Assembly (NCBI GenBank): GCA_026399435.1
Contig: JAPLQX010000016.1
Coordinates: 1-39,450 of the forward strand
Direction of reading: 5' to 3'
DNA: 39,450 nucleotides
From: Rhodocyclales bacterium
GTDB lineage: Bacteria > Pseudomonadota > Gammaproteobacteria > Burkholderiales > Rhodocyclaceae
The notes under the pieces were generated by a model. It was not told the origin of the DNA and searched no databases. It saw only the letters and a list, made by a program, of their open reading frames with translations. Numbering within the stretch: position 1 is the stretch's first letter; every line of letters starts with the position of its first letter. Position numbers and translations under genes: made by a program. Below are positions 1,735 to 34,164 of the stretch, in pieces.

Positions 1735-1978
1735 CAAGCTTCTTGTCTGGCTGTTGCGTATCGTGGTCTTCGTCGGCCTGTTCGGCCTGGCGATCAAGAA
1801 CAGCGGCCCGATGGAACTGCGCTTCTTTCTCGAACAGGCCTGGACGGCGCCGATCTCGGTAGTCATCCTCGTCGTGTTCGCCGTTGGCGTTGTGGTCGGC
1901 CTGACGGCGGCCTTGAGCGTCTTCCTGCGCCCACAGCCCAATCCGGGTCACGAGCCGCGCAAACATGATGGAAATTGA
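1721..1978 (+). CDS. lapA: Lipopolysaccharide assembly protein LapA-like (DUF1049)
   Basis: This is a small inner-membrane protein of 85 residues. It has a hydrophobic segment at about residues 5-22, an 'AIKNSGPMELRFF' stretch typical of the LapA/DUF1049 family, a second membrane segment at about 40-62, and a short charged tail. LapA partners LapB in controlling lipopolysaccharide assembly. The GTG start at 1721 is chosen because the in-frame ATG upstream (1694) runs into a stop. The ribosome-binding site is poor and a 14-bp tandem duplication covers the start. The 3' end overlaps lapB by 14 bases, so the pair is translationally coupled. Family and context agree well. Confidence 0.88.
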   Translation: MTTLLKLLVWLLRIVVFVGLFGLAIKNSGPMELRFFLEQAWTAPISVVILVVFAVGVVVGLTAALSVFLRPQPNPGHEPRKHDGN

Positions 1979-3179
1979 ACTCTGGTGGCTGCTGGTCCTG
2001 CCGGTCTTTTTCGGCCTGGGCTGGATCGCCGCGCGGATCGACATCAAGCAGATACTCAAGGAGTCGCGCGCTTTGCCGCGCTCGTATTTCAAGGGCCTGA
2101 ATTTCCTTCTCAACGAGCAGCCGGATCAGGCCATCGAGGCCTTCATCGAGGCAGCACGGATCGATCCGGAAACCATTGAACTGCATTTCGCGCTGGGCAA
2201 CCTGTTTCGCCGGCGCGGTGAGACCGACCGCGCGATCCGCGTGCATCAGAATCTGATCGAGCGCGATGGCCTGTCGGCTGCACAGCGGTTGCACGCCCTG
2301 TCCGAACTCGGGCAGGACTACCTCAAGGCCGGCCTGCTCGATCGCGCCGAGGAGATATTCATCAAGCTGCGCGGCACCGACCGCGACGAGGAGGCGCTGA
2401 AGAACCTGCTCGAGATCTATCAGCAGGAAAAGGAATGGGCCAAGGCGATTGCAACTTGCGACGCCATGCCGAACCATGCCGATCATCTCTGGCAAAAGGA
2501 AATTGCCGAGTTTCGCTGCGAGATGGCGGCCAATGAAATGCTGCATGACCGCCATGACGAGGCGCGTCGCCTGCTCGACGAGGCGCTGGCGGCCAACCGG
2601 AAATGCGTTCGTGCCACGATGCTGCAGGGCGACCTGGCGGCGAAAGTTATGCGAAGCGGTATCCCCGGGGACGGCGCTGGCCCGGGTGACCTAAACGCGG
2701 CGATCGATTGCTGGAAGCGTATCGAACAGCAGAACCCGGTGTACCTCGCGCTCGTCGCGGAGAAGCTGATGGCGGTGCATGTGCAGCTGGGTCGCATGGA
2801 GCAGGGCATCGCGCTTCTGCGCGGCTGGCTGGAGCGTCATCCCTCACTGGACCTGCTCGACGCGGTGTTTCGCGCCGAACTCGAGAACGACGGCCCGGAG
2901 GCCGCCTACACGCTGGTGCGCGACGAGTTGCGCCGCAATCCGACGCTGCTCGGGCTCGACAAGCTGCTGGAGGCGCAGATCATGGTGGTCCCTCCCGAGC
3001 GCCGCCCCGATCTGGAACTGATCAAGAACCTGATCCACAATCACACCCGCCGCGTCGCGCGCTATCGCTGCGATGCCTGCGGCTTCAAGGCGCGCCAGTT
3101 CTACTGGCGCTGTCCCGGCTGCGGCGGCTGGGAAACCTATCCGCCCCGGCGCACCGAAGAATTCGACATCACGCCTTAA
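1965..3179 (+). CDS. lapB: Lipopolysaccharide assembly protein LapB (YciM), with an inserted element
   Basis: LapB is an inner-membrane-anchored TPR protein that in E. coli recruits LpxC to FtsH and so sets lipopolysaccharide levels. The 404-residue product has an N-terminal membrane anchor (residues 4-20, WWLLVLPVFFGLGWIAA), a long run of TPR helices, and a C-terminal rubredoxin-like metal knuckle with Cys369, Cys372, Cys383 and Cys386 (CDACG and CPGCG). All family features are present. Unusually, residues of about 227-239 (VMRSGIPGDGAGP) interrupt a TPR turn between 'GDLAAK' and 'GDLNAAIDCW'. They are encoded by a 40-bp sequence found again, identically, in non-coding DNA at 12733. The reading frame is kept. 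It overlaps lapA, and ugd lies 158 bases downstream behind a GC-rich hairpin element. Confidence 0.95.
   Translation: MMEIELWWLLVLPVFFGLGWIAARIDIKQILKESRALPRSYFKGLNFLLNEQPDQAIEAFIEAARIDPETIELHFALGNLFRRRGETDRAIRVHQNLIERDGLSAAQRLHALSELGQDYLKAGLLDRAEEIFIKLRGTDRDEEALKNLLEIYQQEKEWAKAIATCDAMPNHADHLWQKEIAEFRCEMAANEMLHDRHDEARRLLDEALAANRKCVRATMLQGDLAAKVMRSGIPGDGAGPGDLNAAIDCWKRIEQQNPVYLALVAEKLMAVHVQLGRMEQGIALLRGWLERHPSLDLLDAVFRAELENDGPEAAYTLVRDELRRNPTLLGLDKLLEAQIMVVPPERRPDLELIKNLIHNHTRRVARYRCDACGFKARQFYWRCPGCGGWETYPPRRTEEFDITP
2642..2681 (+). repeat. 40-bp dispersed repeat, copy 1, inside lapB
   Basis: These 40 bases are identical to 12733-12772. The core is a 24-bp dyad (2655-2678) centred on TCCCCGGGGA with outer arms AGCG and CGCT; 18 of 24 positions are symmetric. 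It lies in the lapB reading frame, adding about 13 residues to a turn between TPR helices without a stop. One end carries TTATGCGAAG, which also occurs (reverse-complemented) at the very end of the window. Confidence 0.9.
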
Positions 3180-3240: not shown

Positions 3241-3295
3241 CGCCCCCCCATCCCCCCTCACGGGGGGCTACTAATCGGCTCGCTTCGCTCGACTA
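3241..3295 (+). repeat. GC-rich intergenic hairpin element A, upstream of ugd
   Basis: A C-run/G-run hairpin (CCCCCC, loop TCAC, GGGGGG at 3252-3267) is followed about ten bases later by GGCTCGCTTCGCTCG. The same two-part design recurs at 4772-4815, on the other side of ugd. It lies in the 158-base gap between lapB and ugd and may end or attenuate lapB transcription, although it has no T-run. Confidence 0.7.
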
Positions 3296-4771: not shown

Positions 4772-4815
4772 CGCCCCCCTCGCGGGGGAGGCGACTTTTC
4801 GGCTCGCTTCGCTCG
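4772..4815 (+). repeat. GC-rich intergenic hairpin element B, just upstream of hldA
   Basis: A CCCCC-TCGC-GGGGG hairpin (4775-4788), with outer CGCC/GGCG pairing, is followed by GGCTCGCTTCGCTCG. It is an imperfect second copy of the element at 3241-3295. It ends only four bases before the hldA start, where a ribosome-binding site would be expected. Confidence 0.7.
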
Positions 4816-5762: not shown

Positions 5763-6761
5763 ATGTACTACGTCGTCACCGGCGCCTGCGGATTCATCGG
5801 CGCAAACCTGGTCAAGGCGCTCAACGAGCGCGGCGTCACCGACGTCATTGCGGTCGACAACCTCACCAAGGCCGACAAGTTCCTCAATCTCACCGATTGC
5901 GAGATCGCCGACTATCTGGACAAGCGCGAGTTTCTCGAAATGGTCGAGCACGGCCAGCTTGATGGCAGCGTCGAGGCCATCCTGCATGAAGGCGCGTGCT
6001 CCGACACCATGGAAACCGACGGCCGCTACATGATGGCCAACAATTACCGCTACTCGGAGACGCTGCTCGATTTTTGTCTGGAACAGGAAGTTCCGCTGCT
6101 CTACGCCTCGTCCGCTTCCGTCTATGGGGGTGGTGGCGTATTTCGCGAAGAACGTGAATTCGAAGCGCCGCTCAATGTTTACGGTTACTCGAAATTTCTT
6201 TTCGACCAGGTGGTGCGCCGTCGCATCGGACCGGCCGGGGACGAGACCGATTCCCAAGTCGCGGGCTTCCGCTATTTCAACGTTTATGGTCCGCGCGAAC
6301 AGCACAAGGGGCGCATGGCATCGGTTGCCTTCCATCACTTCAATCAATATCGGGCGTCCGGCAAGGTCAAGCTCTTCGAAGGCTACGGCGGCTATGGCAA
6401 TGGCGAACAGCGACGCGATTTCGTCTATGTCGGCGACGTGGTCAAGGTCAACATGGATTTTCTGGAAAGCCGCAGGTCCGGGATCTTCAATCTCGGCACG
6501 GGACGCGCGCAGAGCTTCAACGAACTTGCCGCCGCCACTGTGAATGCCTGCCGCGCGCTCGAAGACAAGCCGGCGCTATCCGTCGCCGAATTGGTGGCAC
6601 AAGGCATCATCGAATACATACCCTTCCCGGATGCCTTGAAGGGCAAGTACCAGAGCTTCACCGAGGCCGATCTTTCCCAATTGCGTCGCGTCGGCTACAA
6701 GAGCGCCTTCGCCTCGGTGGAAGAGGGCGTGGCCGACTATGTCAAATGGCTCGCCAGATGA
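5763..6761 (+). CDS. hldD: ADP-L-glycero-D-manno-heptose 6-epimerase
   Basis: This enzyme inverts C6 of ADP-D-glycero-D-manno-heptose to give the L-glycero form used by heptosyltransferases of the lipopolysaccharide core. It is a 332-residue extended SDR. It has the N-terminal NAD(P) motif [12 protein letters not shown], the family-typical 'VDNL' after beta2, '[11 protein letters not shown]', and the catalytic Tyr140-x3-Lys144 pair (YGYSK). '[10 protein letters not shown]' is also visible. It lies 7 bases after hldA, and its stop overlaps the preferred cysM start as ATGA, implying translational coupling. Confidence 0.95.
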
Positions 6762-9115: not shown

Positions 9116-10942
<1,827 letters not shown>

Positions 10943-12732: not shown

Positions 12733-12772
12733 GAAAGTTATGCGAAGCGGTATCCCCGGGGACGGCGCTGGC
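12733..12772 (+). repeat. 40-bp dispersed repeat, copy 2, intergenic
   Basis: These bases are identical over 40 positions to 2642-2681 inside lapB and in the same orientation on the window's plus strand. Here the element lies outside genes, 13 bases after the methyltransferase stop and in the 250-base gap before lysR. The rest of this gap holds no gene I can recognise, only the LysR dyad noted separately. Confidence 0.9.
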
Positions 12773-12911
12773 GATACGGCGATTGAGGCCTGGTCCAGCC
12801 GCGGCGGCGGTCAGGACCATGCCGCTTACGGTATCCTCTCTCTGTTTTCGGGGTACGGAAACGGCCTTTCAGGGAGCGAAACCCCGGCCTGAGATCCGTG
12901 GTTCATTGCAG

Positions 12912-32522: not shown

Positions 32523-33416
32523 ATGTACATCCGCATCAGTCTGCCGCAACAATCGCTGGAACTGCATGACGAGCGAGGGGCCTTGCTGGCGCGCTATCCG
32601 GTATCGACGGCCGGCAACGGGGCAGGGGAGCAGAACGGCAGCTTTTGCACTCCGCGTGGCCGACACATCATTCGGGCAAAAGTCGGCGCCGGCGAGACGG
32701 CTAATGCAGTCTTCGTGGGTCGGCGCCCCACTGGCGAAGTATGGTCTCCGGAACTCGCAGAGCAGTTTCCGGAGCGCGACTGGGTACTGACGCGCATCCT
32801 CTGGCTGTCGGGCAAGGAGCCGGGACGCAACCGGCTGGGTGAGGTCGACAGCATGCGTCGATACATCTATCTGCACGGATGTCCGGATTCAGCGCCAATG
32901 GGAACACCGGATTCGCATGGGTGCGTGCGCATGCGCAACAGCGACATCATCGAATTGTTCGATCTGGTACCGGTTCAAACCGAGGTTGAGATTGTCGAAT
33001 TCGGCGTCGAGGCGGGGTCATGGAACGAACTCATGGAGCAGGCGCGCCAGGTGCGCGACGCCGTGTTTGTCGACGAACAGAAGGTCCCGCGGGACATCGA
33101 GTGGGACGAGCACGATGCCGTCAGTCGGCACGTCATCGCACGCGACAGCGACGGCGATGCAATCGGCACCGGGCGTCTCCTGCCGGATGGTCACATCGGA
33201 CGCATGGCGGTGCTGGCAGACTGGCGCGGCAAAGGCGTCGGCCGTGCGCTATTGGAAAGACTGCTGGAAGAAGCCCGTCTGCAGGGCCACGGTCATCTGG
33301 CGCTGCACGCGCAGACGCAGGCCAGCGGCTTCTACCGGCGCTTCGGTTTTGTCGAGGAAGGACCGGAGTTCATGGAATCAGGGATTCCGCACCGGACCAT
33401 GGTGCGTTCAATCTAA
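32523..33416 (+). CDS. L,D-transpeptidase (YkuD) fused to GNAT acetyltransferase
   Basis: This 297-residue protein has two domains. Residues 1-155 form a YkuD domain with the catalytic motif 'H118GCPDSAPMGTPDSHGC134VRM', in which Cys134 attacks the tetrapeptide stem; such enzymes make 3-3 cross-links or attach proteins to peptidoglycan. Residues of about 165-297 form a GNAT domain with 'VFVDEQKVPRDIEWDEHD' and the acetyl-CoA loop 'VLADWRGKGVGRALLERLLEEA'. No signal peptide or membrane anchor is visible, which is odd for a periplasmic reaction beside a cytoplasmic acetyltransferase. A GTG at 32517 is an alternative start. The 3' end overlaps the convergent NRDE gene by 47 bases. Confidence 0.87.
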   Translation: MYIRISLPQQSLELHDERGALLARYPVSTAGNGAGEQNGSFCTPRGRHIIRAKVGAGETANAVFVGRRPTGEVWSPELAEQFPERDWVLTRILWLSGKEPGRNRLGEVDSMRRYIYLHGCPDSAPMGTPDSHGCVRMRNSDIIELFDLVPVQTEVEIVEFGVEAGSWNELMEQARQVRDAVFVDEQKVPRDIEWDEHDAVSRHVIARDSDGDAIGTGRLLPDGHIGRMAVLADWRGKGVGRALLERLLEEARLQGHGHLALHAQTQASGFYRRFGFVEEGPEFMESGIPHRTMVRSI

Positions 33417-34164
33417 GGCGATAGCGCAACCGCTCGCCGCGCTTCGCCCCCGGCAGCCAGGTCTGTTCGTCGAAGCTGGTCCAGCCGTCCTGCCCGACGC
33501 ACAACACCGTGGAGCCGCGTGTGCCGTACCCAAGCGATTTGACAAAGGCCGAGGACAGCAGGCGCTCCCAATCGAGCGGAACCCCGGTCTGCGGCAGATA
33601 CTCATCGGGATGAATGCCATCGTCCTGGAGCAGGCGAAACAGAGCCTCATCGGCCGGCAGGCCGTCCAGTGCCTGTGCCAGCGCCGTCTTGCCGGCACCG
33701 ACTTTCGGCCAGGGTGTGTCGAGCAGATGATTGGATACGCCATACACGCCCGCCGGCAGCGGGCGCGGCTTGCCGCCCATGTTCGACGACCACCACAGTG
33801 TTGCGCCATCGCTTACCAGCAGGTTGTAGCCGTTGCACTGGCTGCCGTAGGCATCGATGCGTTCAAGGTAGGCTTGCGGCGTTTCGCTGCCGGTGAGGAA
33901 GTCCGCCACCAGCTTGCCGCGGGACGGTGCGCCGTTGCGGTTCTGCGCCGGATCGCGGTAATTGGTCAGCGCCGCGAAGCGCCCGGTACGCGTGACGCCC
34001 ATCCAGGTGCCGCCGGCTTCGAGATCGCGCCCGGCCAGCACCTGCGGCGTGTCTTTCCAGAAAGCGGCCGCTGCGGTCGGGCGGGCGAAGAACTCATCGC
34101 GATTGGCGGCCACCACCAGCGGGTATTCGGGACGGACCCGCCAGGCGACGAGAATCAGGCACAT
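33370..34164 (-). CDS. NRDE family protein (TANGO2-like)
   Basis: This 264-residue protein belongs to the NRDE/TANGO2 family, whose members have been linked to haem handling; the bacterial role is uncertain. It starts MCLILVAW, with the conserved Cys2, and has the name-giving 'AANRDEF' at residues 19-25, then 'GGTWMGVTRTGRFAALTNYRDP' and 'GYNLLVSDG...WWSSNMGG', all family motifs. The ATG at 34164 is required to expose Cys2. It lies 8 bases downstream of ygfZ on the same strand, forming a pair. Its 3' end runs 47 bases into the convergent transpeptidase gene. Confidence 0.9.
   Translation of the reverse strand: MCLILVAWRVRPEYPLVVAANRDEFFARPTAAAAFWKDTPQVLAGRDLEAGGTWMGVTRTGRFAALTNYRDPAQNRNGAPSRGKLVADFLTGSETPQAYLERIDAYGSQCNGYNLLVSDGATLWWSSNMGGKPRPLPAGVYGVSNHLLDTPWPKVGAGKTALAQALDGLPADEALFRLLQDDGIHPDEYLPQTGVPLDWERLLSSAFVKSLGYGTRGSTVLCVGQDGWTSFDEQTWLPGAKRGERLRYRLRLNAPWSGAESLIP

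Follow-up and report, generated by a model that had tools for sequence, protein, structure and literature searches.

How does the gene for a TPR protein come to contain, in frame, 40 bases that also stand in non-coding DNA of the same contig? The question is raised by lapB in a 39,450-nt stretch of DNA from a Rhodocyclales bacterium (GenBank assembly GCA_026399435.1, contig JAPLQX010000016.1, positions 1 to 39,450), henceforth referred to as the window. A preliminary description of the window had reported that 40 bases of lapB are identical to non-coding DNA at 12733 and had taken them for one inserted repeat. Direct comparison within the window verified that positions 2642-2681 and 12733-12772 are identical, and two matches to the 33-base core of the repeat (up to three mismatches) were obtained in none of 100 shuffles of the window. 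The 40-mer is a composite, in which an inner element, H, is nested in an outer repeat, S. We consider it fairly probable that the same two very small repeats, one nested in the other, make up both sites, with H a mobile element resembling the small dispersed repeats (SDRs) of cyanobacteria and lodged in S. The parts of the two sites are as follows.

1965..3179, plus strand: lapB, the host gene, encoding a TPR protein with a LapB zinc ribbon (Pfam TPR and Zn_ribbon_LapB; alignment with PDB LapB)
2643..2647, plus strand: left 5 nt (AAAGT) of the S repeat in lapB (lapB orthologue alignment, coordinates)
2648..2671, plus strand: H element of 24 nt, set in S at AAAGT^CGGCG and adding eight residues (presence or absence in orthologues, coordinates)
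2672..2681, plus strand: right part of the S repeat in lapB, CGGCGCTGGC (orthologue alignment, coordinates)
2682..2693, plus strand: separate in-frame 12-nt insert within S, CCGGGTGACCTA, adding four residues (found with or without H in relatives)
2694..2702, plus strand: final 9 nt of the S repeat in lapB, diverged (orthologue alignment)
12734..12738, plus strand: left 5 nt of the intergenic S copy (repeat match, coordinates)
12739..12762, plus strand: second H element of the window (exact match; intergenic by gene calls)
12763..12781, plus strand: right 19 nt of the intergenic S copy (repeat match, coordinates)

Two layers at the lapB site

Of 31 genomes of the genus, 27 have a LapB match; the DNA of 27 loci was aligned. 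In most of these genes AAAGT runs uninterrupted into CGGCGCTGGCGAYACGGCG, while four (G000, G006, G018 and G023) carry 24 additional bases at this junction, TATGCGAAGCGGTATCCCCGGGGA or a near variant; H is thus a 24-nt gain inside S in 4 of the 27 loci. S itself was recognized in 25, being whole in 18 (up to five mismatches) and interrupted by H, the 12-mer or both in seven; the remaining two (L163 and L169) are more diverged at this position. Because lapB of the genus occurs with S and without H, a single 40-bp element is ruled out. A small dispersed repeat is indeed present, as first described, but the inserted unit is the 24-nt H and the remainder of the 40-mer is flanking S. That the lapB insertion is an assembly or binning artefact is highly improbable: the genome is an assembly of 57 contigs and 81% complete, yet four separate genomes have H at this very point of lapB, and the matches listed in a scan of named genomes include the core of H in Sulfurisoma sediminicola strain BSN1 and numerous further assemblies.

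At the protein level, translation and Pfam agree with the earlier statement that the frame stays open through to the zinc ribbon despite the insert. The extra residues, placed by that description in a TPR turn, coincide with a gap between TPR helices in the alignment with E. coli LapB, the helix positions being our own reading. They do not number 13: LapB is 12 residues longer than its relatives, eight from H and four from the 12-mer, and none of 29 loci outside the genus has the net 12 residues at this stretch. LapB proteins of the genus that bear S and lack H have the same length here as S-free LapB outside the genus. Therefore, S alters the sequence of lapB but not its length and is no insertion there.

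The alternation of S-only and S+H states recurs at other orthologous sites. Three pairs of loci differ by 24 nt (L044/L017, assigned to rsmA by Pfam analysis of L003; L208/L109; L088/L083) and one by 27 nt (L121/L027), and two show larger gains containing H (L199/L063, +36; L270/L147, +33). The S-only members of these six pairs all lie in called genes. Here and below, placement of S and H relative to genes is based on a codon-usage caller written for this analysis.

Copies of H and their possible movement

H has the form TATGCGNAGCGGTATCC-NNNN-GGA, measures 24 or 27 nt and sits at one exact point of S (AAAGT^CGGCG). In the window's genome, the 33-base core was found at 13 places (up to three mismatches) and a 19-base core at 22 (up to two mismatches); a 31-mer recurs, at up to three mismatches, in 26 of the 31 genus genomes. 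In the window's genome, called genes hold 20 of the 22 copies of H (12 sense, 8 antisense), so that the intergenic copy at 12733 is an exception. All 20 measure 24 or 27 nt and 19 have a host with a Pfam family. Named from these domains, with gene names inferred, the hosts are lapB, rsmA, an acyl-CoA ligase, a Methyltransf_28 gene, a bioD-like gene, an aminotransferase, a heptosyltransferase, ileS, a LapD-like gene, a histidine kinase, TauE, a spermidine-synthase-like gene, Memo/AMMECR1, mutL, waaA, a glycosyltransferase, malonyl-CoA decarboxylase, glyS and an HlyD-type gene; one gene has no Pfam match. These genome-wide copies, together with the LapB orthologues, uphold the earlier claim of a very small dispersed element standing in frame within an important gene.

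A larger sample comprised 131 non-cyanobacterial copies with distinct flanks, 104 of them genic, 26 intergenic and one at a gene edge. Two loci were dropped before these counts as probable chance matches, namely Chitinophaga L060, which has no GGA end, and L124, in which GGA follows a 5-nt loop and which was read as a native hydrolase motif. H is 24 nt long in 99 copies, 27 nt in 27 and of another length (22 to 25 nt) in five. Lengths that are not a multiple of three are rare both in genes (2/104) and between them (3/26); the multiple-of-three length is therefore in large part intrinsic to H. In genes, 54 of 62 sense copies share one frame, GT immediately precedes H in 128 of the 131 copies, and removal of H restores an S-like 24-mer (up to seven mismatches) in 115.

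S also receives other inserts (L005, L008, L059, L115, L137, L153 and others): a longer one with CTCTGCGTACCTGG..CCGCTTCGCGGGC in 12 contexts, one with GTCCCCTTGGGGGAC in seven and one with CCCACAGGGACTTCC in two. When L293 and L275 were aligned with L292:14470, an H variant was seen in which the first loop is swapped for a long hairpin-like piece (TCTCCGGCTCGGGCCGGAGA in L293), which suggests nested growth of H itself.

Among the at least 111 matched stretches in the scan of named genomes, most belong to Rhodocyclales or betaproteobacterial assemblies (Sulfuritalea, Sulfurisoma, Rugosibacter and others); a few of the matches listed are titled Burkholderiaceae or Gammaproteobacteria, and three are cyanobacterial. 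In viral contigs, the 19-mer of H gave no match and the H pattern one. An H-like 24-mer is present in Pleurocapsa and Xenococcaceae assemblies and matches two plasmids of Chondrocystis NIES-4102; in three cyanobacterial genomes the 19-mer occurs, at up to two mismatches, at 84, 38 and 92 places. Fifty-one cyanobacterial copies, left out of the H counts above, were read with their flanks. They consist of a 24-nt block, TATGCGNAGCGGTATCCTTTAGG followed by A or G, that extends from TATGCG to GGA or GGG. The two bases 5' of TATGCG are variable. Position -1 is T or A in 48 copies and position +1 is C in 36. Compared with H, 20 of the 24 consensus positions are identical and the ends are the same, whereas the surroundings differ; position 7 is variable in both groups. 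Because of these 20 positions and the shared ends, we infer that the betaproteobacterial and cyanobacterial elements are probably of common descent. In a few cyanobacterial copies, such as L150, L521 and L539, removal of the block rejoins a heptamer repeat, as judged by eye.

We propose that H would be an SDR-like mobile element of 24 nt, at times 27 nt, with no gene of its own. It adjoins a T^C step in this clade (most often T^C or A^C in cyanobacteria) without target duplication. The S sites would be places where proteins tolerate change; given such sites and the usual length of 24 or 27 nt, H would add eight or nine codons to genes such as lapB with the frame kept. H presumably moves, and an enzyme acting in trans would move it, possibly via single-stranded DNA or RNA. 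More tentatively still, S may be kept as a double-stranded sequence signal, perhaps of an uptake-sequence-like kind. Two features, the precise rejoining of S and the lack of any target duplication, are reminiscent of single-strand transposition of the IS200/IS605 type. The SDR work of Elhai and colleagues from 2008 reportedly proposed RNA intermediates. Y1_Tnp matches, including the IS200 type, were found in 26 of the 31 genus genomes, and near most of the RAYT-type loci scanned it is S, not H, that is found. Two complete genomes rich in S, G050 and G180, lack any Y1_Tnp match, however, and S is absent from G097 and G248, which have three and two matches, respectively.

Several points weigh against movement of H in this manner. 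No movement of H was seen and no mobilising enzyme was identified, and H could have spread between S copies by gene conversion instead of transposition. The 131 copies were fetched by pattern and hence are no random sample; 16 of them leave no S-like 24-mer at the cut-off, several having an S that is interrupted again. The preliminary description had noted a near dyad in the 24-bp core: TCCCCGGGGA is a 10-bp palindrome, but the whole 24-nt H shows no dyad by eye and alone folds no better than shuffles (z +1.6). A two-sided stem change was found only at pair 15-24, in 2 of 49 distinct 24-nt H sequences. In lapB, the 12-nt insert is present in G000, G006, G023, G004, G025 and G005, a pattern in conflict with that of H, which stands alone in G018, while the 12-mer stands alone in three genomes. 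Because of this conflict, cross-species recombination may lie behind part of the lapB pattern. Among the 51 cyanobacterial copies, finally, only five passed a period-7 test of heptamer rejoining.

The nature of the S repeat

S is a 24-nt unit of about the sequence AAAGTCGGCGCTGGCGAYACGGCG. At up to three mismatches it occurs at 211 places in the window's genome, 106 on one strand and 105 on the other, and in all 31 genus genomes at 17 to 540 places each, a reversed control giving 0 or 1 per genome and strand. The genome with 17 places (G026) is 99% complete and has no Y1_Tnp match; G027, likewise without Y1_Tnp, has 379. Among 300 genomes drawn evenly from the order, 21 have a match. Many copies were present only in G000, G050, G180 and G278, which all belong to the same family as the window's genome, and the others had one to five each. 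Weight matrices gave 25.7 bits and 91 sites (reversed control 10) in 400 kb of the window's genome, 30.9 bits and 91 sites (control 0), with high-scoring copies predominating, in 400 kb of G001, a variant ending in GGGACGGCAC with 52 sites (control 1) in 200 kb of G180, and 20.8 bits and 71 sites (control 4) in 200 kb of G278.

Sites scoring above 20 bits lie in called genes in 44 of 72, 62 of 86, 28 of 46 and 33 of 40 cases, respectively (61 to 82%), against a called coding share of 89 to 92% of the sampled DNA; S is therefore mostly genic, yet less so than chance predicts. In these four genomes, 55 of 78 sense copies read as the KVGAGDTA frame. Apart from the two composite sites, the window contains the following S-like sequences.

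9357..9380, minus strand: S-like, without H, four mismatches, in a recQ-type helicase gene between the RQC and HRDC domains (scan, Pfam)
32679..32702, plus strand: S-like, without H, three mismatches, in frame (KVGAGETA) in a called gene with an L,D-transpeptidase domain (scan, Pfam)
6219..6254, minus strand: 36-nt version of the site in an hldD-like gene (scan, Pfam, locus comparison)

At the hldD-like site, comparison of 20 loci gave a 24-nt S-like sequence in ten, the 36-nt version in eight, including the window, and a 24-nt sequence unlike S in two. A further S-like match at 33682-33705, with four mismatches and in a TANGO2-type gene, was kept off the list; we presume that it may be a native motif of the protein. 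Another repeat pair of the window, 3252-3291 and 4776-4815, is intergenic, 80% alike and flanks the gene after lapB on both sides; it consists of a C-run/G-run stem followed by CGGCTCGCTTCGCTCG.

The idea that S is a simple insertion of 24 nt is not supported: 1274 orthologous comparisons, in which lapB and hldD weigh heavily and phage loci are included, never gave a net gain of exactly 24, and 1035 were net 0. In an earlier set of 601 comparisons, 339 of 412 net-0 targets were themselves within seven mismatches of S. S faces a non-S orthologue of equal length at five sites, lapB, hldD and three others in called genes (L134/L324 vs L339, L121 vs L027, L316 vs L142). Gains of other sizes were seen at four further places: L333 vs L336 (+30) and L339 vs L127 (+6) in genes, L363 vs L440 (+26) in phage, and one region outside called genes, in which L276 and L282 exceed L278 by 19 and 30 nt. 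Several rows of this list of comparisons contain S on both sides and are alignment artefacts.

Rfam returned no match at E up to 1 in five loci, a plasmid search returned one 22-nt match to S+H, taken as chance, no description of S was found in the literature searched, and the H and S cores were not found in print in the literature searched by sequence. S does occur in 89 stretches of viral contigs, with at most six copies per locus among the 80 scanned. One viral contig (L368:884-2240) has five copies in direct orientation with 316 nt in three of the four spacings, resembling a tandem array. In phage loci, including L360, L364, L367, L374, L383, L430 and L432, a conserved piece resembling GTGCAGGGCGACATGCTTTTGCCTGCYAACG often comes after S, the upstream sequences differing; a longer module led by S seems common to several phages.

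S may be uptake-signal-like or may resemble repetitive extragenic palindromes (REPs). One possibility is that RAYT (Y1 tyrosine) transposases mobilise S as a repeat of the REP type; the lapB sequence would then be an ordinary intragenic REP with a nested insert, a kind of placement reported for other genomes (PMC3733652). The Y1_Tnp matches in most genus genomes agree with this, and so does the position of S near RAYT-type genes: in 8 of 12 RAYT-type loci with enough sequence, S lies at most 300 nt downstream of the stop codon, seven times on the gene's strand, compared with 29 (15 on the gene's strand) of 254 control genes that are followed by 90 nt or more of intergenic DNA. The scan for S covered loci other than L503-L518, and the 12 are related and hence not independent. 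S is found on both sides within 1.2 kb at four RAYT loci, inverted in one only (L489). In four genomes, no covariation was seen at the stem pairs of S, and positions 9 and 24 fail to pair in 29 of the 33 distinct sites of G180; a hairpin REP is accordingly not supported for S. Its consensus starts with neither GTAG nor CGTC, and the mismatch between Y1_Tnp and S in G050, G180, G097 and G248 counts against a RAYT-mobilised repeat as well. We regard this explanation as rather doubtful.

Alternatively, drive could maintain S as a signal for DNA uptake or recombination, much as with the DNA uptake sequences (DUS) of Neisseria, and H would be a passenger using S as a safe landing site. This would be consistent with the strand balance in the window's genome, the 26 to 31 bits of the motif there and in G001, the dominance of high-scoring copies in the latter, the variant consensus in G180, the mostly genic placement with a frame preference and the five length-neutral sites. 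At 30 orthologous sites, S is more similar than its flanks (identity 0.88 vs 0.82, higher at 21 of 30, P 0.008), although many loci were fetched by matching S, which biases toward higher S identity. A ComEC family gene is present in 30 of the 31 genus genomes, which is permissive only, since 10 of 14 control genomes have ComEC too. The occurrence in viral contigs argues against such a signal, and conservation is raised only weakly at the fourfold sites of the lapB S copy (P 0.07). Neisseria uptake sequences form terminator pairs; no inverted S pair less than 200 nt apart was present in any of the four sampled genomes, and the gains of other sizes do not fit the Neisseria picture well either. 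This account of S is possible, if on balance not probable. A drive-maintained double-strand signal nonetheless fits S somewhat better than a hairpin REP, because of the lack of covariation, the unpaired stem position, the length-neutral differences and the lineage variants. We think it unlikely, on present evidence, that the full combination holds, in which a Rhodocyclales group has a 24-nt signal for uptake or recombination and H, a trans-phylum mobile element, uses it as a safe landing site. To our knowledge, such a signal would be the first of its kind outside Neisseriaceae and Pasteurellaceae.

Significance and comparison with known systems

A mobile element of 24 bases, as H may be, would be close to the lower size limit for such elements. 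Found in two phyla with identical ends and partly shared target preferences, H provides a sequence handle for finding the mobilising activity. H inside S in ileS, glyS and lapB shows a route by which new peptide segments may enter proteins without loss of frame. If the proposed relationship between H and S is true, a 24-base parasite exploits a genome-wide marker of tolerant protein positions.

Among known systems, H appears to behave like a cyanobacterial SDR, a likeness drawn from its features. The H-like 24-mer occurs in Pleurocapsa, Xenococcaceae and the Chondrocystis plasmids, and the nesting has a counterpart: PMC4390886 places cyanobacterial SDR5 precisely within another short motif, HIP1, much as H lies precisely inside S, 115 of 131 H copies leaving an S-like 24-mer on removal. 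Elhai and colleagues reportedly gave SDR lengths of 21-27 nt in 2008; H measures 24 or 27 nt in 126 of 131 copies and 22 to 25 nt in the other five. The same study is said to have described secondary structure with compensatory changes in SDR4-6, to which H compares with weak folding and the two-sided change in 2 of 49 distinct sequences. Unlike SDRs, H is found here in Betaproteobacteria, nested in S and mostly in frame inside protein genes.

The Rickettsia palindromic elements (RPEs), named as a parallel in the preliminary description, are a parallel in effect only: they too are short repeats that stand in frame in many unrelated genes (PMC3733652), as does H in 20 of 22 copies of the window's genome. 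H differs in its nesting in S, its hosts and the lack of a demonstrated palindrome, and its closest relative found is the cyanobacterial 24-mer. With the REP/RAYT systems (Nunvar 2010, PMC2817692; Di Nocera 2013, PMC3733652), S shares its short length, high copy number and frequent presence near RAYT-like genes of the genus. A rayt gene flanked by two inverted REPs has been described (Nunvar 2010, PMC2817692), whereas inverted S on both sides was found in 1 of 12 RAYT loci and S downstream in 8 of 12; moreover, S lacks a GTAG or CGTC tag and a supported hairpin and is mostly genic. The DUS of Neisseria and the uptake signal sequences of Pasteurellaceae are, like S, unskewed, present in hundreds of copies, located in genes and variable between lineages. 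S differs from them in its length of 24 nt and its presence in viral contigs.
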